From: Polychytrium aggregatum
Lineage: Eukaryota > Chytridiomycota > Chytridiomycetes > Polychytriales
Direction: 5' to 3'
Length of the DNA stretch: 64,000 nt
Assembly (NCBI RefSeq): GCF_025602895.1
Contig: NW_026516209.1
Coordinates: 434,001-498,000, forward strand
This document shows positions 29,275 through 40,376 of this stretch, one piece after another. The position numbers and the translations under genes were made by a program. A model generated the notes under the pieces. That model did no database searches. It had not been told where the DNA came from and saw only the letters and a program-made list of their open reading frames with translations. How positions within the stretch are numbered: position 1 is the first letter of the stretch; each line of letters opens with the position of its first letter.

Positions 29275-32200
29275 ATGCCCTCCACTGACCAGCTCTATGA
29301 TGCTTCCGACCCCGCCCGCCGCGAGGGCCTCATCGACTCGGCTGCCGCTTCGGCCGTGACCCTCTCGACCTCATCAGTGTCCGGCGACCCCGCCCGGGAC
29401 TCGTCCTCCCTCGTCTCCGTACAATCGCTGCAGAAGAGCACTGACGCCTCCTCTGTCGATAGCAACAGGCTCGGAAGCACCTCCGAGAGCTCGACCAGGC
29501 GCTTCCTCAGCCGCTCGCCCTCGACCAAGCGCGAGGCAGTCAGGGAAGCTCCGCGAGAGCCCCTTCCTGCGTCCGCCAGCTTGGTCGGGGTCAGCTACCC
29601 AGTCGCCCTGAGCGACTCGACGGTTGTGGTGGAGGAGATTGTCAAGCTTGACGAGGCCACCGGTCTGCCTCTTGCCCCTCTCAAGGAGAATATCGAATTC
29701 CATACTGCGTTCCCTGCTATCGATCTGACCTTCTCGCTTCTCAACCGTAAGTCCGTCCGGGCGCAGGGCTCTCGGTTAGCGCATATGCCAACCCGTGGGT
29801 TGGTCTGCTGGCAGTCTCTCTTGTGAGCTGTCCATCTAGATGGCCTGTCGATTCAGCCTCTGGATAGATCACCAAGACCATTCTCCAGCAGCGCTTCCCG
29901 AGCTCGTCGCTCGTCGCTGGTTGTTGGTTGGCTGTGCCATCGGTCAGCCCATCAGCTCCGGCCACTTTGGATGAAAAGCACTTCGATGATGATCTCATCC
30001 AGAACTCATACTCTGCTCTCTCTTCCGCTCTTGTACGTGGTTGGGCATCGTGTGTCCACGGCATCGATGTCGCCCAGACTATTCGTGCGCCATTCACAAG
30101 GACGTGCTGATCCAGGGCCGTCTTTGGATATCGCAGCACTGCATCAGCTTCAAGGGCTGGACCAATGTAAGCTACCCGTCCCAACCCGAGAGAGCACCAC
30201 CGTGCCCATCTCTGACAGAGACTCGCTGTGAGTGCATTTCAACGCTTCCTGACACAACATCTCGCGAATATCCAGCTCAGCGTCACCATCAATTTTGACG
30301 AAATCGTCCACATGGAGAAGAAAACAATCGCCTATGCCTTTCCAAACTCGATTCTGATCGAAACCGAATCAACCCAAGTATGATCGTGCTGAGTTAAATT
30401 GGAGGGTGGCAACTGAGGACATCAGACACGAATGAAGCTGCCTGGCCGCTGACGCCGCTTGTGATTGAAGTACTTTTTTGCTAGTTTCCTCGCCCGCGAT
30501 GAGGTTTTTGACATTCTGTCGAGACTGTGGGACGTGCATGTTCCGGTAAGCACTGTCCTTGATCCATTCTGCTCTGTTGCTCTGCTTGGCACTGAGGGTT
30601 TGTGCTTCCCATGGCCTTGGTGTCTCTGTAACGCACCCCCCCCGGGACTTACGTTGCCGCTGTCGTGGCTGCACAGACGACGAGCGCCCTCCGCAAGTAC
30701 CCCGACATGTCTGCTCTGGTCTGCGTCTGCAATGGCGTTGGCGTCTGTGAGGCCTGCTTTATCAGGAAGCGGGTCGAGCGGGAGGAGCAGGCGCAGCAGG
30801 TACAGCTGGCCAAGAAAGCCAAATCCAAGGCTGTCAAGCCAAACAGTGGCTATCTCTCGTCTCAGTGGGAAACCGGAAGTGAAGACGAAAGTGGAGCCCG
30901 AACCGGAAAGCAGTGGAAGTCCTCGCTAGGGATCAAGCGACGAAAGCCCCGGAACGGTACCACCAGCGATCTAGATCGCAGCCAATCCGAGCTCGACCGG
31001 GTCTACCTGGCGCCGCCAGCCTCCAGCAGCAGCGTGCGCATCGCAAACATCAGCAGCGAAGCAGTCTCGGCTCTCTCTGTCGAGGAGCCCGCATCGGTGC
31101 CGGTTGAGGAACCCAGCACACCACCGGCAAATCTTCCTGCCGCCCCCGTTCAATGCCCTTGCGATGCGCAAAGAGGCATCGTCGATGTCCTCGACAAGGT
31201 CTACGATATTCCTTTCGATCGCATCTTTGCCCTCCTGCTGACCTTCCCTCCCAAGGCCCAAGGAAACAGCTTCGTTTTGAATTTGCTCGAAAAGCGCAAC
31301 TTTACCGGTGGGTAGGCCTGTACAGCGGGGCGCACTTGAGGCCGCCCAGCAAATCTAATCTCTGAGCGGGATTTTGTCCAGATGTCCAAGTTTCACCCTG
31401 GGGTCCCAACGGGGCACAAGCACCGACTGAGGCCGGTCCCAACATTGGCGGCGGTAACTTTGAGCCCTCGCCTGACAGCCTGCAAGTGGGCGATAGCCAC
31501 AGACTCAACTATGTGATTCCACTGGGTCTGCCCATTGGTAAGCGTTTGTGCTAGGGCCGCGACTCTACATTCAGTGTCAAGATGGGCATAGCGAGCGATG
31601 GATTTGGCCAAATACAACGGCCAGTGCGCATTATCGCCTGTGGTCGGCAGCTTGAAGCTTCTGCAATTGGTATCATGCGACGCTTGATTGGCACTCTGAC
31701 GGGTCCTTGGACATGCTCAGGTCCCAAAACCACACAGTGCACCAACAGCTTCAAGATCCTGGCCATCCGTCCGCACCACTATGTCTGTGTCCACCAGATT
31801 ACCGAGACGCCCAACGTGCCGGCAGGCAACTGCTTCCGAAACCATCTTCGGATCTGCCTAACGTTCCAGACACCCAAACGCACCCGTCTGGTAGTGACCG
31901 GCCGCTGCGAGTTTTACAAGTCCTCGATGCTCAAAGGCACGATCGAGAAGAGTACCGCCGACGGTTGGCGCGGACATTACGCCGACCTCGATCTGATGCT
32001 TCTGGAACAAGCCACCCAGTTCCAGTCCAGCCATCACAACCAGTTGGTGCACTCGGACGGAGAGCTGGCCAGACCACATCAGTACCAGCACCAACATCAG
32101 CACCAGCACAAGCACTCGCACTCACGCCACGGAGCAGCCATTCAGGACGAAACAGGCTCGCTGCCCCAGCTCAAGCAAGCTGCATCGTCCTCGACCCTGG

Positions 32201-32469
32201 GTACGCTGCGCCGACAGCGATCGAAGGTCTTGGACGAAGAGCCCAGCTGGCTCGATCAGCTGCTTCCGGATACCCTCGATGCCCTCGGGCCTCAAGCGGT
32301 CATTTTGCTCCTGGCCTTCCTGCTGCTCTTCCTCGTGCTTCTGATCACCATCAACACGGCCGTGCTCTGGAAGGTGGCCGAGATGGTGCGCCGGTTTGAC
32401 CGGCGGGTGGGTGTGCTTGAGTCGCGGCTGCAGACCGTGCTGGAGCTCCTCAACCAAGCCCAGCCCTGA
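29275..32469 (+). CDS. GRAM-VASt-TM sterol transfer protein (LAM/Ltc/Aster family)
   Basis: Predicted ER membrane protein that moves sterol at contacts between the ER and plasma or other membranes. A Ser-rich N terminus (MPSTDQLYD) precedes the GRAM domain, whose exons read DYSCAIHKDVLIQGRLWISQ, then INFDEIVHMEKKTIAYAFPNSILIETES, then FFASFLARDEVFDILSRLW. A basic/acidic linker follows (about 30,680-31,140), then the VASt sterol-binding domain (FDRIFALLLTFPPKAQG, LNYVIPLGLPIG, TNSFKILAI, GNCFRNHLRICLTFQTP). Next come a His/Gln-rich tract at about 32,070-32,130 and one membrane helix (AVILLLAFLLLFLVLLITI), and a short coiled-coil tail. Domain order is that of yeast Lam1-6 and animal GRAMD1. I could not fix every splice site around 29,750-30,120. 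Start is the first ATG of the frame. Confidence 0.88.
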
Positions 32470-33527: not shown

Positions 33528-36500
33528 TTACAGCGGGATGTTGGGATCGACGCGCTTGACAGGAGGCTGGTAGTACTGGACCGGCACAGGCATGGGCTGC
33601 GAGATGTCGATCGCCAGTCGAGGATCGGTCTTCTTCTTGGTGGTGGTGCGAGGCACGAGCGGTGAGGTTGCTCGTCCCTTCTTCTCTCCCTCGGCCGTCT
33701 TGCGGCGTCTGAGGGTGTTGGCAGAGGACAGACGGCCGAGGGTGCGGTGCACAACGCTGAATTCGCCCCAAGCAAAGTTGGTCTTGCGGACATTGTCGCG
33801 CTGGACGGGACGAGGGCGGCGCCAAAGCGTCTGGGTGCGGCTGGCTGCGGAGCCAGAGTTGTTTTCCGAGACGAGGGTGATGTCGCTCTGGGCAGAGCCA
33901 GTCTGGGAGGCATTGCTTGGCGGGTAGGCGCTGATCGATTCGAGCTCGACGACGGTGCCGGGCCAGCCCTGCCAGGTGCTGCCGCCTTCCACGAGCTCGC
34001 CACTGACAACGAGAGTGTGCTCAAGCAGAGTCGAGTCAGGCTCCATCTCGGCGCCCGAGAGCAGGCGCGATTCGGCGCGGAGGACGGATCCATTGCCAAT
34101 AACCAAGGGATTCAGCGAAAACTGGCCGCGGCTGTTGATGTGGCAGACCACACTAGCGACGTCAATAGCAACGTCGTCGCCGATCTTGACCAGGTCGGGC
34201 TCGGTCATCATCGGGTCGCCGCCGGTGGGGTAGAGACAGACGCGCTTGCCGATGCGACAGCCCAGGGACCGGAAGTAGTGCACAATGTACCAGGAGCCGC
34301 GGATGTACTCGAGCAGGTCGCCACGAAGCGAGTGCGCAGCAATCAGGATCTGCCAGCGCTGGCAGTACGACGACTTGTCCCAGTCGTATCGTCCGGGCTT
34401 GCGGCGGCCAAAGAGAGTCCACTTGACACTGACCTCAAAGGCCATGGCCAGGAAGGCAAAGATCGAGAAGGCACCGGCGCAAACAAACACGATGATGACG
34501 TGAGCGATGACTTGTGTGGTTGTATCGGCCAGGTTCCGCATGAGAAAGAAGCGGTCGGCAGAGATCATCGCGATGATGAGCGGCGTGGTCCAGTAGACAG
34601 TCCGGATTGCTTCAAACGCAATGTTGTACAGAATGCAGGCCCACATGGGGATGACGCGGAACTCGGCATCCCTGTTGTAGAAAGCCTTTCCGAAGGGCGT
34701 GGTCGTATCGGTGATGTGCTTGCGCTTGGGATCGCCGGCGTCCCAGAGAATGGGCTTGCCGCCGCGCGAGCCGATCCAGACGGATGCTGGAGGATACTCG
34801 GTATCCCGCTGCGACAGCGCGCCAGAGCCCATGACGCACCCGCGGCCGACCATGGTGCCAGGGAGGAGCACGCAGCGATCGGCGATCATCGAGCCAGCCT
34901 CGATCTTGATCTCGGTCGAGCGCACCGAGTCTGAGCAAAGCACGTGGGTGCGCGATCCAAAGACCACATCGTCCTGGACCTCGAGGAGATCAAACTCGTA
35001 GAAAAACAGCGGCGTTCCGGGCCAGTAGATGCGCTTGCCGATCTTGGCGCCGAGGGCGCGGTAGATCGTGCTGGTGGCCTCGTAGTGGCGGCCGATGAGC
35101 GCATAGACGCCACAGAGCGAGCCATCCTGGAAGAGCTTCTTCATGAGCCAGTGGCGGAAGAGGTTGAACTGGGAGTTGCTGACGCCGCCATTCTTGAAGC
35201 GGCCGACGAGGATCCACTTGACCGCGATACAGATGCCGAGGTGGAGGAAAGGGCACAGGGTATCGCGGATCACCAAAGCCCAGTAGTGGAAGCCGATACG
35301 AGCCGGGTGCGAGAAGTAGTCGATCATCTGGCCAAACAGGTCCAGGTTGACTTCGGCTGTGAAGAAGTTCTCGTAGGCAAGCAGGTAGATGATGCACATC
35401 CACGGGAACATCGAGAGCAGATTGATAATGAAGAGCAGGGGCCATCCAAAGATGATCTTGTAGATGACATTGAGATCGCGGTGGCGAGTACGGCAGAGGG
35501 TCTGGAAGTGCGGGCTGGCGTCCTGCATCTCGTACGAAGAGCTCAGGGGAGGGAACACAGTGAAGGGCGGGACGGTGTGGCCGGCCGCCACAACAGACTT
35601 GATGTTCAGAACACTGTGTTCACCTGTGGTCGACGGGAGCAGGGACATGTAAGTGACTCCGACAGGGGCAGTCGCCGACCAGCCCACGCCACGCGCCAAC
35701 CCACACCAGCCGTACGTACGGACGTAACGTGGCAACCGAGCGTGCGTAGACACTCACACTCGACAGATGCAACCAAGACCCACAGGCAACCAAACAAAAA
35801 GCTGCTTACCAATGGTGATTTTCTTGAGGACCATTCTGCCCGTCTCCATGAAGAACGGGCGGATACGCGCCGTGTCAAAGCTGGCGCCATCGCCGATATC
35901 GATGAGATCAAACTCGCCAATGTTGGTCGAGGTGTCCAAAGCAACATCCTTGCCGACCTTGGCTCCCATCAGGCGCGCATAGAGAACCAGGGTCATCGAG
36001 CTGGTGCCGAAGCAGCCGCGGCCACAGATGCGCAGCACCTGATCGACAATCCACCAGCGCAGATAGTACGAGCCCCACAGGGGGTAGCTGCGCGAATGCA
36101 AAAACAATGTCGGTAAGCACGATTGCCACTGAGCTATGAACTATGAGCTATGAACTATGGGCTATGAGCATCAGATAGAGTCCAACAGCTAAATAGGCGA
36201 TGGCGCCAGCAGAGACACTCTCAAAGTCAAGGACGTCAACCAGTGAGTGCGCTTTACCTTCCAGCCTTGTATCGGCCAATGACAATCCACTTGAAGAGGA
36301 TGCCGAGGGTGGGCATGACAATCCAGAGGACCGTGTGGGAAATGGTGATGGCAATCAACAACTGGATCACACGGACCAGCGGCGCGGTCTCGATATGGAG
36401 AGCGTCGCGACGGACCGTGTCGGTAAGGATCAGGATGTGCAGGAACGTCAGCCACAGCGCCGCCGTGTACAGCGGGCGGAAGAAGGCGATGGGCAAGATC

Positions 36501-39500
36501 TGCACGAAGAGGGCCACAAAGCACGTGGACGACTCGGATTTGACGCGGAGCTCGTCTGCCTCATTGGCTGTTTGCTTCTTGGTGGTTTTGGTACGAATGA
36601 GCGGGTCAGTCGAGTCGACGCTCATTGCAGTGGTGGCACGCTCGCTGATCAGAGCAGCAAGTGCGCGGATGGTGCGATGCTCGAACAGGGTCATCGCAGG
36701 GAGACTGATATCGTATTCTTTGCTGTGTAGAAGGAAGGAAAAGGCGGCTCGTTGTCAGTGCGACTGTCGATGGGTGCGTCGTACACGACCATGTGCTGAT
36801 GGGATAGATTGCAAGGGAGCGAGATGATTTCCAATACCAATACGGTGCCAGGGCATACAAAACAAAAGGGCGGCCTATCTGCTGCTCAGGTGCATGTCAA
36901 GCCTACCGAATGAGACCGACAACGCGCCCGGCCTTGAGGGAGCCGCCGCCGAGCTCGAAAAAGTCGGCGTCCAAGGTGTTGATCTTTTCGAGCTCCAGAA
37001 CGGTCAGGAAGATGTTGTACACTGAGCGCTCCTCCGGGGTAGCCATCTCCATATCCACGCCTTGCTTGTCGAGCTCGGCGTGGAGGGCGTCGACATCAAC
37101 GGTCTTGCCGTCGGCCATCTTCTTAAGCTTGGGCAAGTGGATGATCTGCTTGGGGACGTCATAGTCATGGATACATCCAAAGAGGTGCTCCTTGATCTCC
37201 TCGGAGGAAAGAGGGGACTTGGAGGTGTCCTGGCACACAAACATGACCAAGTCGTCACGCGAGTTGGCAATGCAAGCAACTTCGATAACGCCGTCGACCT
37301 TGAGCAGGGTCTCGACAGCGCGATCGGACGAGCAGACGACGGGATGGGCCTCGATCGGGGTCTTGATGCCAGCGGTGCGAGGGGGACAGACAGGGGCATC
37401 GTAGAGGCGCTGCTTGGGTCCCATCTTGTCGTTGATCTCGGCGATTCCGAAACGGTTTGCCAGGTTGATGCGGAGGGGCTTGTTGTTCTGGTTCTTTGGG
37501 AGCTCGTTCATGTAAACAATCAGCTGAGGCCACTTGGAGGGATGCAGGGTCTTGGACACAAAGCTGGCGCAGATGTGCAGGGTCAGGGTCAGTACAGCCC
37601 CGTTCAGTACAGCTCCGTTCCGGCGGGAGCGATGCGCGAGCAGTCGAGAATTCAGTGCTGTGCCAGAGCGAGGACACTAAGCGGCGACTTACTTTTGGAG
37701 CTGGGGGAGATCCACGCGGCACTCGGGATCGGTCGAGACAATAACCACGCCAATGGTTTCCTGGAGAACATCGTGCGGGACCGAGAAGGCGATGGTCTCG
37801 AGCACCTTTTCGTGCTTGATCACAGCGTCCTCGACCTCGACGGGCGAGATGATTTCACCGCCACGGTTGATGACTTCCTTGGAGCGGCCGGTGACGTAGA
37901 GATAGCCGTCTTCGTCGAGGTAGCCCATATCGCCGGTATTGAAGAAACCGTCGGCAGTGAAGGAGCTGGCATTGGCATTGGCATCGTTCTCATATCCCTG
38001 GAAGACGGGCGGGCCGCGGACCATGATGTGACCGATGGCTTTGGGAGGCAGCTTGTTGTGGCTGTCGTCCATGATGGCGATCTCGGGGCCAACAGAGACG
38101 CCGGAAGTGCCGGGGCGCTCAAGGGCATAGCCCTGTGGCGGGGTAGCAATGGGCATGCACTCGGTCATGCCATACGACGGCAGAACGGTAGCGCCAACAA
38201 AGAACTCGCGAAGCTCAACCGCCAGGGACGGGAGCAGTCCGCCACCGGCATTGGCGATCATACGGATGCCGACGGGATAGTCGATACCCCGCGAGCGGCC
38301 TTCCTGAAGAATTGCGTGGTGCATGGTTGGGACGGCGTAGTACCAGGTCGGCTTGCAGTCGTTCTCGGGATGCTGGATGATGTCCCAGAAGACAGAGGGA
38401 TCAAAGCCCTTGGTCAGGATGACTGAACCACCGCTGAAGACAGGAGCCAGAAGGTTGCGCAGGATACCGCCAACGTGGTACAGCGGCATCATGTTCAGGT
38501 TGACGTCGGATTCCTGATAAGGCAAGAATCGAGATGGGATGGGATGAGATGAGATGAGCTGCGAGGGCCAGGGCAGGTGGACACGGTGGGCTTCCACAAG
38601 CAAGAGGAGCCTGACAGAGACTTAGTCAGCCGCACGACGCTTACCACCAGTGCCCACGACTGAGCGACACACAGAGCGCCGATGATGAGGGTCTCGAGCG
38701 TATATGGGACGGTCTTTTTGTTGCCGCTGGTTCCGGAGGTGGCGAGGACCATGCCGTAGTCGCCCATTTGGTTGAGGGCCTGGCGGCGGTGCCAGGACAT
38801 GGACACACGGCTCGAGGCACGGAGAGCAGACTTGCGCTTGTTTGCATTTGAGGTTGCGAGAGAGCCGCCCTGCACAGACCAGGATCAGCCAGAGGCGATG
38901 AGAATAGCAGCCGCGAGGGATACACGCAAGGGAGGGGGCACAGAAGGCCGTTGTGGATGACAGAACGCCAAAGCCGCCTGGACAAGGTGAGCAGGAATAC
39001 GCTGCCGAAATACAACGAGCCGGGGGTGCGATGCATACCTGCGATGCGCCATCGGATCCATAGGCTTGGAGATCAAAGAGGCCACACGTTTTGCTGTTGG
39101 GCGTCAGGACGACGACGTTGATGCCATGCCACTCGAGCGAGTTGACAAAGCCAGTCTGTAAAGCGGTGGCAAGAGTACAACGGTCAACGGAGGTGGAAAC
39201 GCGCGCAGCCGAGAGCAGGAAGGTGGCGAGGACAGGTCCCGCGCCTTGTGCGGCCAACAGCAAACTTCCCCCCCCACCACTCCCAGGCATTAAAATCACC
39301 CGCCCGTCCTTCGCAGCTCTGTCGAGGCACACCTCGACAGGAGCGGGTCCCCGCAAAGCAGATAACCCGCACACCAGACGGAGAGGAGTCCCGAGGAAAA
39401 GGAGAGGGTGAAAGGCCAGCCAATAAAATCGCCACAAGCCAGGAGCTGATTGGAACAACGATAGCAGCGTGGGAGGCGGTGGCGATAGCAGGATTCATGG

Positions 39501-40376
39501 AACAGAGCGAACGGAGAGCGGCGGGAGGGCCCAGACACCCAACGCGGTGCAGCAGCAACTACAGCTTACGTTAACTCGGGTCTCGGGCATGATGACTGAT
39601 TTGGCACCGAGGCGGGAGAGCTCGGTGCAGATTTCGTCATCCGTCATGTGGTAGTTGATCGGGACCGAGGTGCAGTAGGCCATGACCGTGACCAGGCAAA
39701 CACCGAGCTCGGGCCCATCAGGCAGAACAATGCCAACCCGGGTATTGGGCGACCAGCCAAAGGACGAGAAGTCCACAAACTCGACAAAGCTTCGCAGGAC
39801 CGAGTGGCTCAGCGACTCGCGTTCCGAGTCGGTCGAGACAATCACAGGCTTCGGCAGGTCCAGCAGTAGGTCCAGCATGCTGCGGACGTCGTGCAAAGTG
39901 CTCTGGACCTTGATGCCGAGACAGGCATTTTCGTCCAGGAAGGGCGGCAGTTCGCGCGGATTGAAGGTGGAGATGCGCCTGCTCCTGCGCGAGCCCGGCT
40001 GGAAGACGGACTGCCGCTTGTTGCCAAAGTCTTGAGCAAAGATGGACTGCCGCTTGCTGCCGTAGTCCTGGCCGAAGATGGACTGTCGCCTGTTGCCGTA
40101 GTCCTGGCCAAACATGGATTGGCGCCGGCCGCCATTGTCGGGACCGAAGATGGACCGCCGTTTGTTGCCCGAGGGCTGGGGCTTGAGGGGAGGCGGGATA
40201 TGGCGGGTGGAGATTTGGTCCATCTCGTTTTCGAGGGACGCAGACCAGCGATCGGTGTCGGCGGGATTTTCGATGACGACATCGTTCAGGGTGATGCGGG
40301 GTTGAGATGGCCGGCTTCCGGCACGCGGCGTTGGGTTCGAGGACGCCATTCTTGGGTCTGAACGACCTCGAGACAT
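33528..40376 (-). CDS. NRPS-like membrane enzyme: adenylation, carrier, TM and tandem hexapeptide-repeat domains
   Basis: About eight minus-strand exons encode roughly 1,800 residues. (1) Basic N terminus with five tandem 12-residue units of type KRQSIFGQDYGN (residues about 71-125). (2) Adenylation domain: LATSGTSGNKKTV (phosphate loop), PLYHVGGI, SYGMTE, NTGDMGYLDEDGYLYVTGRSK, and a KKMADGKTV lysine near its end. (3) Carrier domain DADFFELGGGSLKAG, with Ser for phosphopantetheine. (4) Several membrane helices mixed with hexapeptide (left-handed beta-helix) segments, such as LMGAKVGKDVALDTSTNIG, LGAKIGKRIYWPG and LGCRIGKRVCLYP, at least three in tandem. (5) A Ser/Arg-rich tail ending DPNIPL. 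No condensation or thioesterase domain is seen. The layout resembles bacterial poly-epsilon-lysine synthetase and the related fungal NRPS-like enzymes, so an amino or acyl acid may be activated, held on the carrier and transferred or polymerised at a membrane. Substrate is not inferable. First exon 40376-39570, last 35621-33528. Confidence 0.85.
39992..40166 (-). repeat. In-frame 36-nt coding repeat (five SIFGQDYG-type units)
   Basis: Five degenerate 36-nt units in exon 1 of the NRPS-like gene each encode [KR]RQS[IMV]F followed by GQDYG or a variant. Every unit has Arg-Arg/Lys-Arg two or three residues before a Ser, like a basophilic kinase site. Confidence 0.85.

Follow-up and report, generated by a model that had tools for sequence, protein, structure and literature searches.

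What would a fungus make with an enzyme whose membrane module is that of a polylysine synthetase and whose adenylation (A) domain resembles an acyl-CoA ligase? The question is raised by a gene of the chytrid Polychytrium aggregatum, located in a stretch of 64,000 nucleotides (the window; contig NW_026516209.1 of assembly GCF_025602895.1, positions 434,001 to 498,000), whose numbering is used below. The coding gene extends from 40376 to 33528 on the minus strand, with eight exons and one open frame of 1,821 amino acids, and these limits equal those of a first-pass annotation which had described an A domain and a carrier fused to a membrane-embedded hexapeptide-repeat module. We consider it probable that the protein is a membrane-bound, carrier-dependent acyltransferase of the Pls/PosA superfamily, in which an acyl-CoA-ligase-type A domain replaces the amino-acid one.

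The layout is no product of chance, since four more loci in this genome (five in all, each on two contigs) and one bacterial open reading frame (ORF) preserve it. The latter, from Novosphingobium percolationis (L059:4463-9058), encodes 1,531 amino acids without interruption, with the parts in the same order. This argues strongly that A domain, carrier and membrane module form one protein, as had been assumed in the annotation. These proteins are referred to here as the present kind, and proteins with an amino-acid A domain as ordinary Pls-type members.

The adenylation domain

All A-domain and carrier motifs named in the first-pass annotation are present in the protein (TSGTSG at residue 352, SYGMTE at 496, TGDMG at 576, GRSK at 592 and FFELGGGSL at 858). 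Pfam assigns AMP-binding to residues 205-557 (138.9 bits), AMP-binding_C to 609-685 (46.2 bits), PP-binding to 838-901 (51.2 bits) and Hexapep to 1362-1392 (27.3 bits, cut-off 27). Condensation, thioesterase and reductase domains are not among the five Pfam families found at E <= 1, which agrees with the earlier statement on the first two.

The solved structures nearest to the A domain are three oxalyl-CoA synthetases, followed by malonyl-CoA and succinylbenzoate ligases; oxalyl-CoA synthetase (plant AAE3, yeast Pcs60) is also the best sequence match among them. At the FDxSxE site of amino-acid enzymes the protein carries MPLYHVGGI (38489-38463), without the conserved Asp and Glu (217 and 221 in PosA) by which passages of PMC10522769 characterise the A domains of cationic homopolymer synthetases. 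We compared the longest ORFs of 81 fetched loci, 80 from genomes and one from a viral collection. The amino-acid motif occurs in 76 of them and PLFHVGG in one, that of N. percolationis; the four with neither motif are uninformative, three being cut by a contig edge (L060, L085, L104) and the fourth being an ORF other than the match (L097). The amino-acid A-domain family TIGR01733 (cut-off 317.4 bits) does not appear in the best 25 of 112 families for the P. aggregatum protein (25th: E 3.3e-38), nor in the 21 families that match the bacterial homologue at E <= 1e-40. Judged by sequence, the A domain is not of the amino-acid type and belongs with the acyl-CoA ligases.

By this kinship the substrate may be a small, perhaps dicarboxylic, acid. 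Unlike in oxalyl-CoA synthetase, however, the A domain is fused to a carrier and a membrane module, and the motifs near the pocket differ. HVHG, SCS and YAMTEA[ST]H, which we take to line the pocket of the oxalyl-CoA synthetases, occur in all three alignments of these enzymes and are changed in all six rows of the present kind, and oxalate itself is therefore doubtful as substrate.

Ahead of the carrier lies a second AMP-binding_C-like subdomain (approximately residues 732-826, 37340-37056; 25.2 bits, cut-off 24.5), a feature additional to those annotated before. A first profile comparison had favoured reading it as the scar left by an amino-acid A domain that had disappeared; later acyl-type control sets were poor (4, 5 and 1 sequences). 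A larger comparison used 19 acyl-type and 79 Pls-type subdomains, with 14 per model and 20 draws, and classified its held-out controls correctly (100 of 100 and 400 of 400). Mean scores were higher for the acyl type in five of the six rows, narrowly so for the P. aggregatum protein, and for the Pls type in one (N. percolationis); profile-profile scores were 75.6 for the acyl type versus 51-57 for the Pls type. The idea of a scar, not supported by this larger comparison, was dropped.

In an AMP-binding protein of Gemmobacter aquarius (L172:6809-9430), a carrier follows an A domain that shares 37% identity with the one of N. percolationis; at its end this protein has a thioesterase domain (28.3 bits, cut-off 26.4), and no beta-helix module was found in it. 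Fungal adenylate-forming reductases (A domain, carrier, reductase; A-T-R) differ by their terminal reductase domain.

The membrane module and its candidate active site

Epsilon-poly-L-lysine synthetase, delta-poly-L-ornithine synthetase PosA and fungal Epls, which make up the Pls/PosA family, have in common an A domain and a carrier followed by six membrane helices and three beta-helix domains (C1 to C3). Polymers of lysine, beta-lysine, ornithine, diaminobutyric or diaminopropionic acid are the products named in passages of PMC10522769, where one homologue is described as weakly active on arginine and the module as being without known structure at that time. The link to Pls proposed in the first-pass annotation is supported, since profile, tblastn and alignment show the C-terminal part to be homologous to Pls-type modules. 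The family TIGR02353 (Pls/PosA) matches the C-terminal module at E 1.7e-65, with 221.7 bits versus a cut-off of 423.1; the bacterial homologue scores 188.5 bits, and three ordinary members score 725.2, 547.8 and 772.6. In a plasmid collection searched by tblastn, 58 records match the module. In 22 of them a single place aligns with 80% or more of the query, the identity being 22-25%, and among the 40 plasmid matches listed, 19 are annotated as Pls/PosA.

In the predicted structure of the bacterial homologue's module there are six long helices and three stretches of beta-helix. For the last exon of the P. aggregatum gene, which covers part of the module, begins inside the first beta-helix and is without the first helix pair, the prediction shows the remaining four helices and two complete domains of beta-helix. 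The annotated membrane helices and at least three beta-helix segments would thus correspond to six helices and three left-handed beta-helix (LbH) stretches, the latter resting mainly on prediction, and hydropathy together with the predicted models points to a membrane-embedded state. The predicted fold of C2 and C3 is that of LbH O- and N-acyltransferases, such as the maltose, galactoside and serine acetyltransferases. These enzymes are soluble, CoA-dependent trimers of separate chains, whereas the present protein holds three such domains in one predicted membrane-bound chain beside a carrier. A comparison of the C3 histidine with solved LbH acyltransferases gave aligned ranges only, the profile search being weak and without a clear His column.

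In C3 (approximately 34406-33924), Glu1598 (34202-34200) and His1618 (34142-34140), corresponding to Glu474 and His494 of the exon, are invariant in an alignment with N. percolationis and 19 other fetched proteins, and are shared with the Pls/PosA family. The segment at this His reads HLFEDR or near it in 79 of the 80 other ORFs, an empirical criterion drawn from the fetched members, and the exception is L097, whose chosen ORF lies off the match. In the six proteins of the present kind the segment is HINSRG, HINSKG or HLNTRG, and HLFEDR occurs in none of them. The retained His and Glu in altered surroundings suggest the same type of reaction on another substrate. In a tree of C3 (160 of 205 columns; 40 of 79 ordinary sequences chosen at random; one row, L041, being a single exon), the six rows of the present kind are parted from 42 ordinary rows, two of them from P. 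aggregatum, with 100/100 support and long branches, the longest being that of N. percolationis.

Ordinary Pls-type genes are present in the P. aggregatum genome as well, at about four loci that each occur on two contigs (C356/C367, C335/C369, C90/C226 and C35/C382). TIGR02353 over C3 reaches 139-188 bits at these loci versus at most 83 at loci of the present kind, and QTHLFEDR is visible by eye in the two that were inspected. TIGR01733 matches of 178-184 bits lie a few kb away on seven of the eight contigs, the exception being C367; none was listed on the ten contigs of the present kind, a weak absence as 12 of 64 candidates were scored. The ordinary genes are candidates for the synthesis of polylysine-like polymers in this organism.

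Could the present protein itself be an ordinary, polylysine-like cationic homopolymer synthetase whose A domain has merely diverged? Most of its C-terminal module is homologous to PosA and to further Pls-type proteins, and there is a fungal precedent in the epsilon-polylysine synthetase Epls of Epichloe, as described in passages of PMC7179176. However, the family of the A domain with its absent Asp and Glu, the altered C3 segment, a TIGR02353 score of about half the cut-off, the place of TIGR01733 outside the best families of this protein and of its bacterial homologue, the split in the C3 tree and the separate ordinary loci of the same genome make this explanation very improbable. The protein appears to be of Pls type by its C-terminal module and, by the features tested, not a cationic homopolymer synthetase; it departs from the family in its A domain, its extra AMP-binding_C-like subdomain, the replaced HLFEDR and the TIGR02353 score below the cut-off.

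A different objection concerns the module as such. The acyl group might be moved to CoA or to a free amine, or the protein might be a non-catalytic regulator, with the beta-helix module a mere membrane anchor or pseudo-enzyme. The kinship of the A domain with acyl-CoA ligases would fit this, as would the lack, in C1 and C2, of any His that ordinary and present proteins share without exception. C3, however, is conserved across the five loci of P. aggregatum and the bacterium, and the fungal and bacterial proteins are 50% identical in the A core and still 35% in the C-terminal module; we regard this explanation as unlikely.

Gene model, copies and relatives

The gene model was built by hand from the genomic sequence and is supported by the exon chain, an intact second copy and the homologues. 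Its seven introns are all GT-AG and 129-414 nt long. Exon 1 (40376-39570) encodes an N-terminal tail and the beginning of the A domain, which continues in exon 2 (39155-39039), exon 3 (38869-38645, with TSGTSG at 38740-38723) and exon 4 (38513-37693), the latter containing the core with YGMTECMP at 38174-38151. Exon 5 (37563-36907) comprises the end of the A domain with the A10 lysine Lys685 (37481-37479), the second subdomain and the bulk of the carrier with Ser865 (36941-36939). The carrier is completed in exon 6 (36722-36258), which also encodes the first pair of membrane helices (approximately 36538-36272). C1 begins in exon 7 (36087-35810), and its remainder lies in exon 8 (35623-33528), followed by helices 3 and 4, C2, helices 5 and 6, C3 and a tail. 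Within the N-terminal tail, four [RK]RQS[MIV]F repeats with a spacing of 12 residues (40127-40002) were not seen in the aligned paralogs; they resemble kinase sites with basic residues.

The assembly of 64.7 Mb consists of 418 contigs, and the gene and each of its paralogs are found on two contigs, as if two haplotypes were represented. The second copy (L053) shows 4 differences in 5,466 nt and no premature stop. Between the gene and its four paralogs, last-exon identity is 47-60%. Only an M16 peptidase and, on the downstream side, a protein with a VASt (lipid-transfer) domain (31555-32469, plus strand, 67 bits) were recognised around the gene, in a scan of 20 of the 62 stop-to-stop ORFs of at least 220 amino acids, a test weakened by introns.

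Carrier domains are numerous in this genome: 138 matches at E <= 0.01 were obtained with 150 of 151 candidates scored, both haplotypes and the present loci being counted. At least five pairs of matches lie on opposite strands, 4.0-4.1 kb apart. Two regions with strong carrier and amino-acid A-domain matches (C417:154203-168628 and C57:145976-147461) are perhaps peptide synthetase genes. At another locus (L020:415-2199, C408) a carrier is followed by a reductase-like TGATGFLGS motif. The number of carrier matches, together with this one locus, read by eye, suggests that enzymes of A-T-R type may have expanded greatly in the genome.

The bacterial homologue differs from the fungal gene in having no introns and no long N- and C-terminal tails; Pfam gives one AMP-binding_C stretch, and the second subdomain is visible by alignment only. 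In a scan of GTDB species genomes, of which the best 80 of 559 relatives were kept, it matches at E 8e-103, the next match being at 1e-28, and it is the only close relative among these 80; more may exist beyond them. A strong match was found in one of 396 genomes drawn from its order (E limit 1e-30) and in one of 398 drawn from its phylum, in both cases the N. percolationis genome itself; 18 other genomes of the phylum draw gave weak matches, with best E values from 3.4e-22 to 7.9e-16. Among fungi, the spread of proteins of the present kind may be wide. A viral origin was rejected, since the one relative that the pattern scan gave on a viral contig carries an FDMSFE motif, the mark of the ordinary type; the best viral structure match of the predicted model is a phage acetyltransferase (E 9.7e-4).

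Next to the bacterial gene lies a phosphopantetheinyl transferase gene. Further neighbours recognised by Pfam are a histidine kinase, a ferritin-like protein, a TonB-dependent receptor and a cation efflux protein; an ORF of 880 amino acids directly upstream matches no Pfam family. In three of the five annotated plasmid Pls loci (L054, L057, L058), as well as at L059, genes for response regulators and histidine-kinase-like proteins lie within a few kb of the Pls-type gene.

Proposed function and its meaning

The analysis shows the gene, its domain order, homology, conserved motifs and predicted fold, and from these we infer enzyme activity, direction of transfer, substrate class, acceptor and perhaps polymerisation. 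Since the A-domain motifs including Lys685, the carrier Ser865 and the His and Glu of C3 are all present, activation, carrier loading and transfer by the membrane module would be expected. The A domain would adenylate a carboxylic acid, for which an alpha-amino group is not required, the acyl group would be loaded onto the phosphopantetheine at Ser865 of the adjacent carrier, and the C-terminal module, with His1618 and Glu1598 of C3 as candidate active site, would pass it on at the membrane, perhaps in repeated rounds, to an acceptor with an amine or hydroxyl group. Regarding the product, the annotation had proposed a polymerase or transferase for an amino-acid or acyl polymer. Of these, an acyl polymer or a transferase may apply; the likeliest product is something other than an amino-acid polymer, given the acyl-CoA-ligase-type A domain and the absent Asp and Glu.

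The repeated transfer could go as far as a template-free polymerase of a non-amino-acid monomer, either a hydroxy acid or an acid together with an acceptor, with a polyester or a mixed polymer as its product. Known homopolymer synthetases have this type of module (passages of PMC10522769), no thioesterase domain appears among the Pfam families, and the A domain should accept acids without an alpha-amino group. However, there is no sign of iteration or of a bifunctional monomer, and the segment after the conserved His, near-constant in ordinary members, is altered, so that we hold such a polymerase to be rather unlikely.

For the acyltransferase proposed here, a tentative wider suggestion is that the Pls-type module is not tied to diamino acids and, in this fungus and in a rare bacterium, handles a carboxylate supplied by an oxalyl-CoA-synthetase-like domain, from which it would make either a polymer not built of amino acids or a membrane product that is acylated. 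We found no description of a fusion of this A domain with a Pls-type module in the open-licence literature, and passages of PMC8070225, PMC7466969 and PMC9893682 do not mention the architecture.

The domain swap is clean and is found in one eukaryote and one bacterium. If true, non-amino-acid chemistry would be new for the Pls/PosA family in the literature examined, including passages of PMC10522769. A clade with a different A domain and an altered active-site segment is a natural comparison for the Pls-type module and would allow the requirements of the membrane module to be told apart from the contribution of the A domain. For such work, the single ORF of N. percolationis would be easier to express than the intron-bearing gene of P. 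aggregatum.
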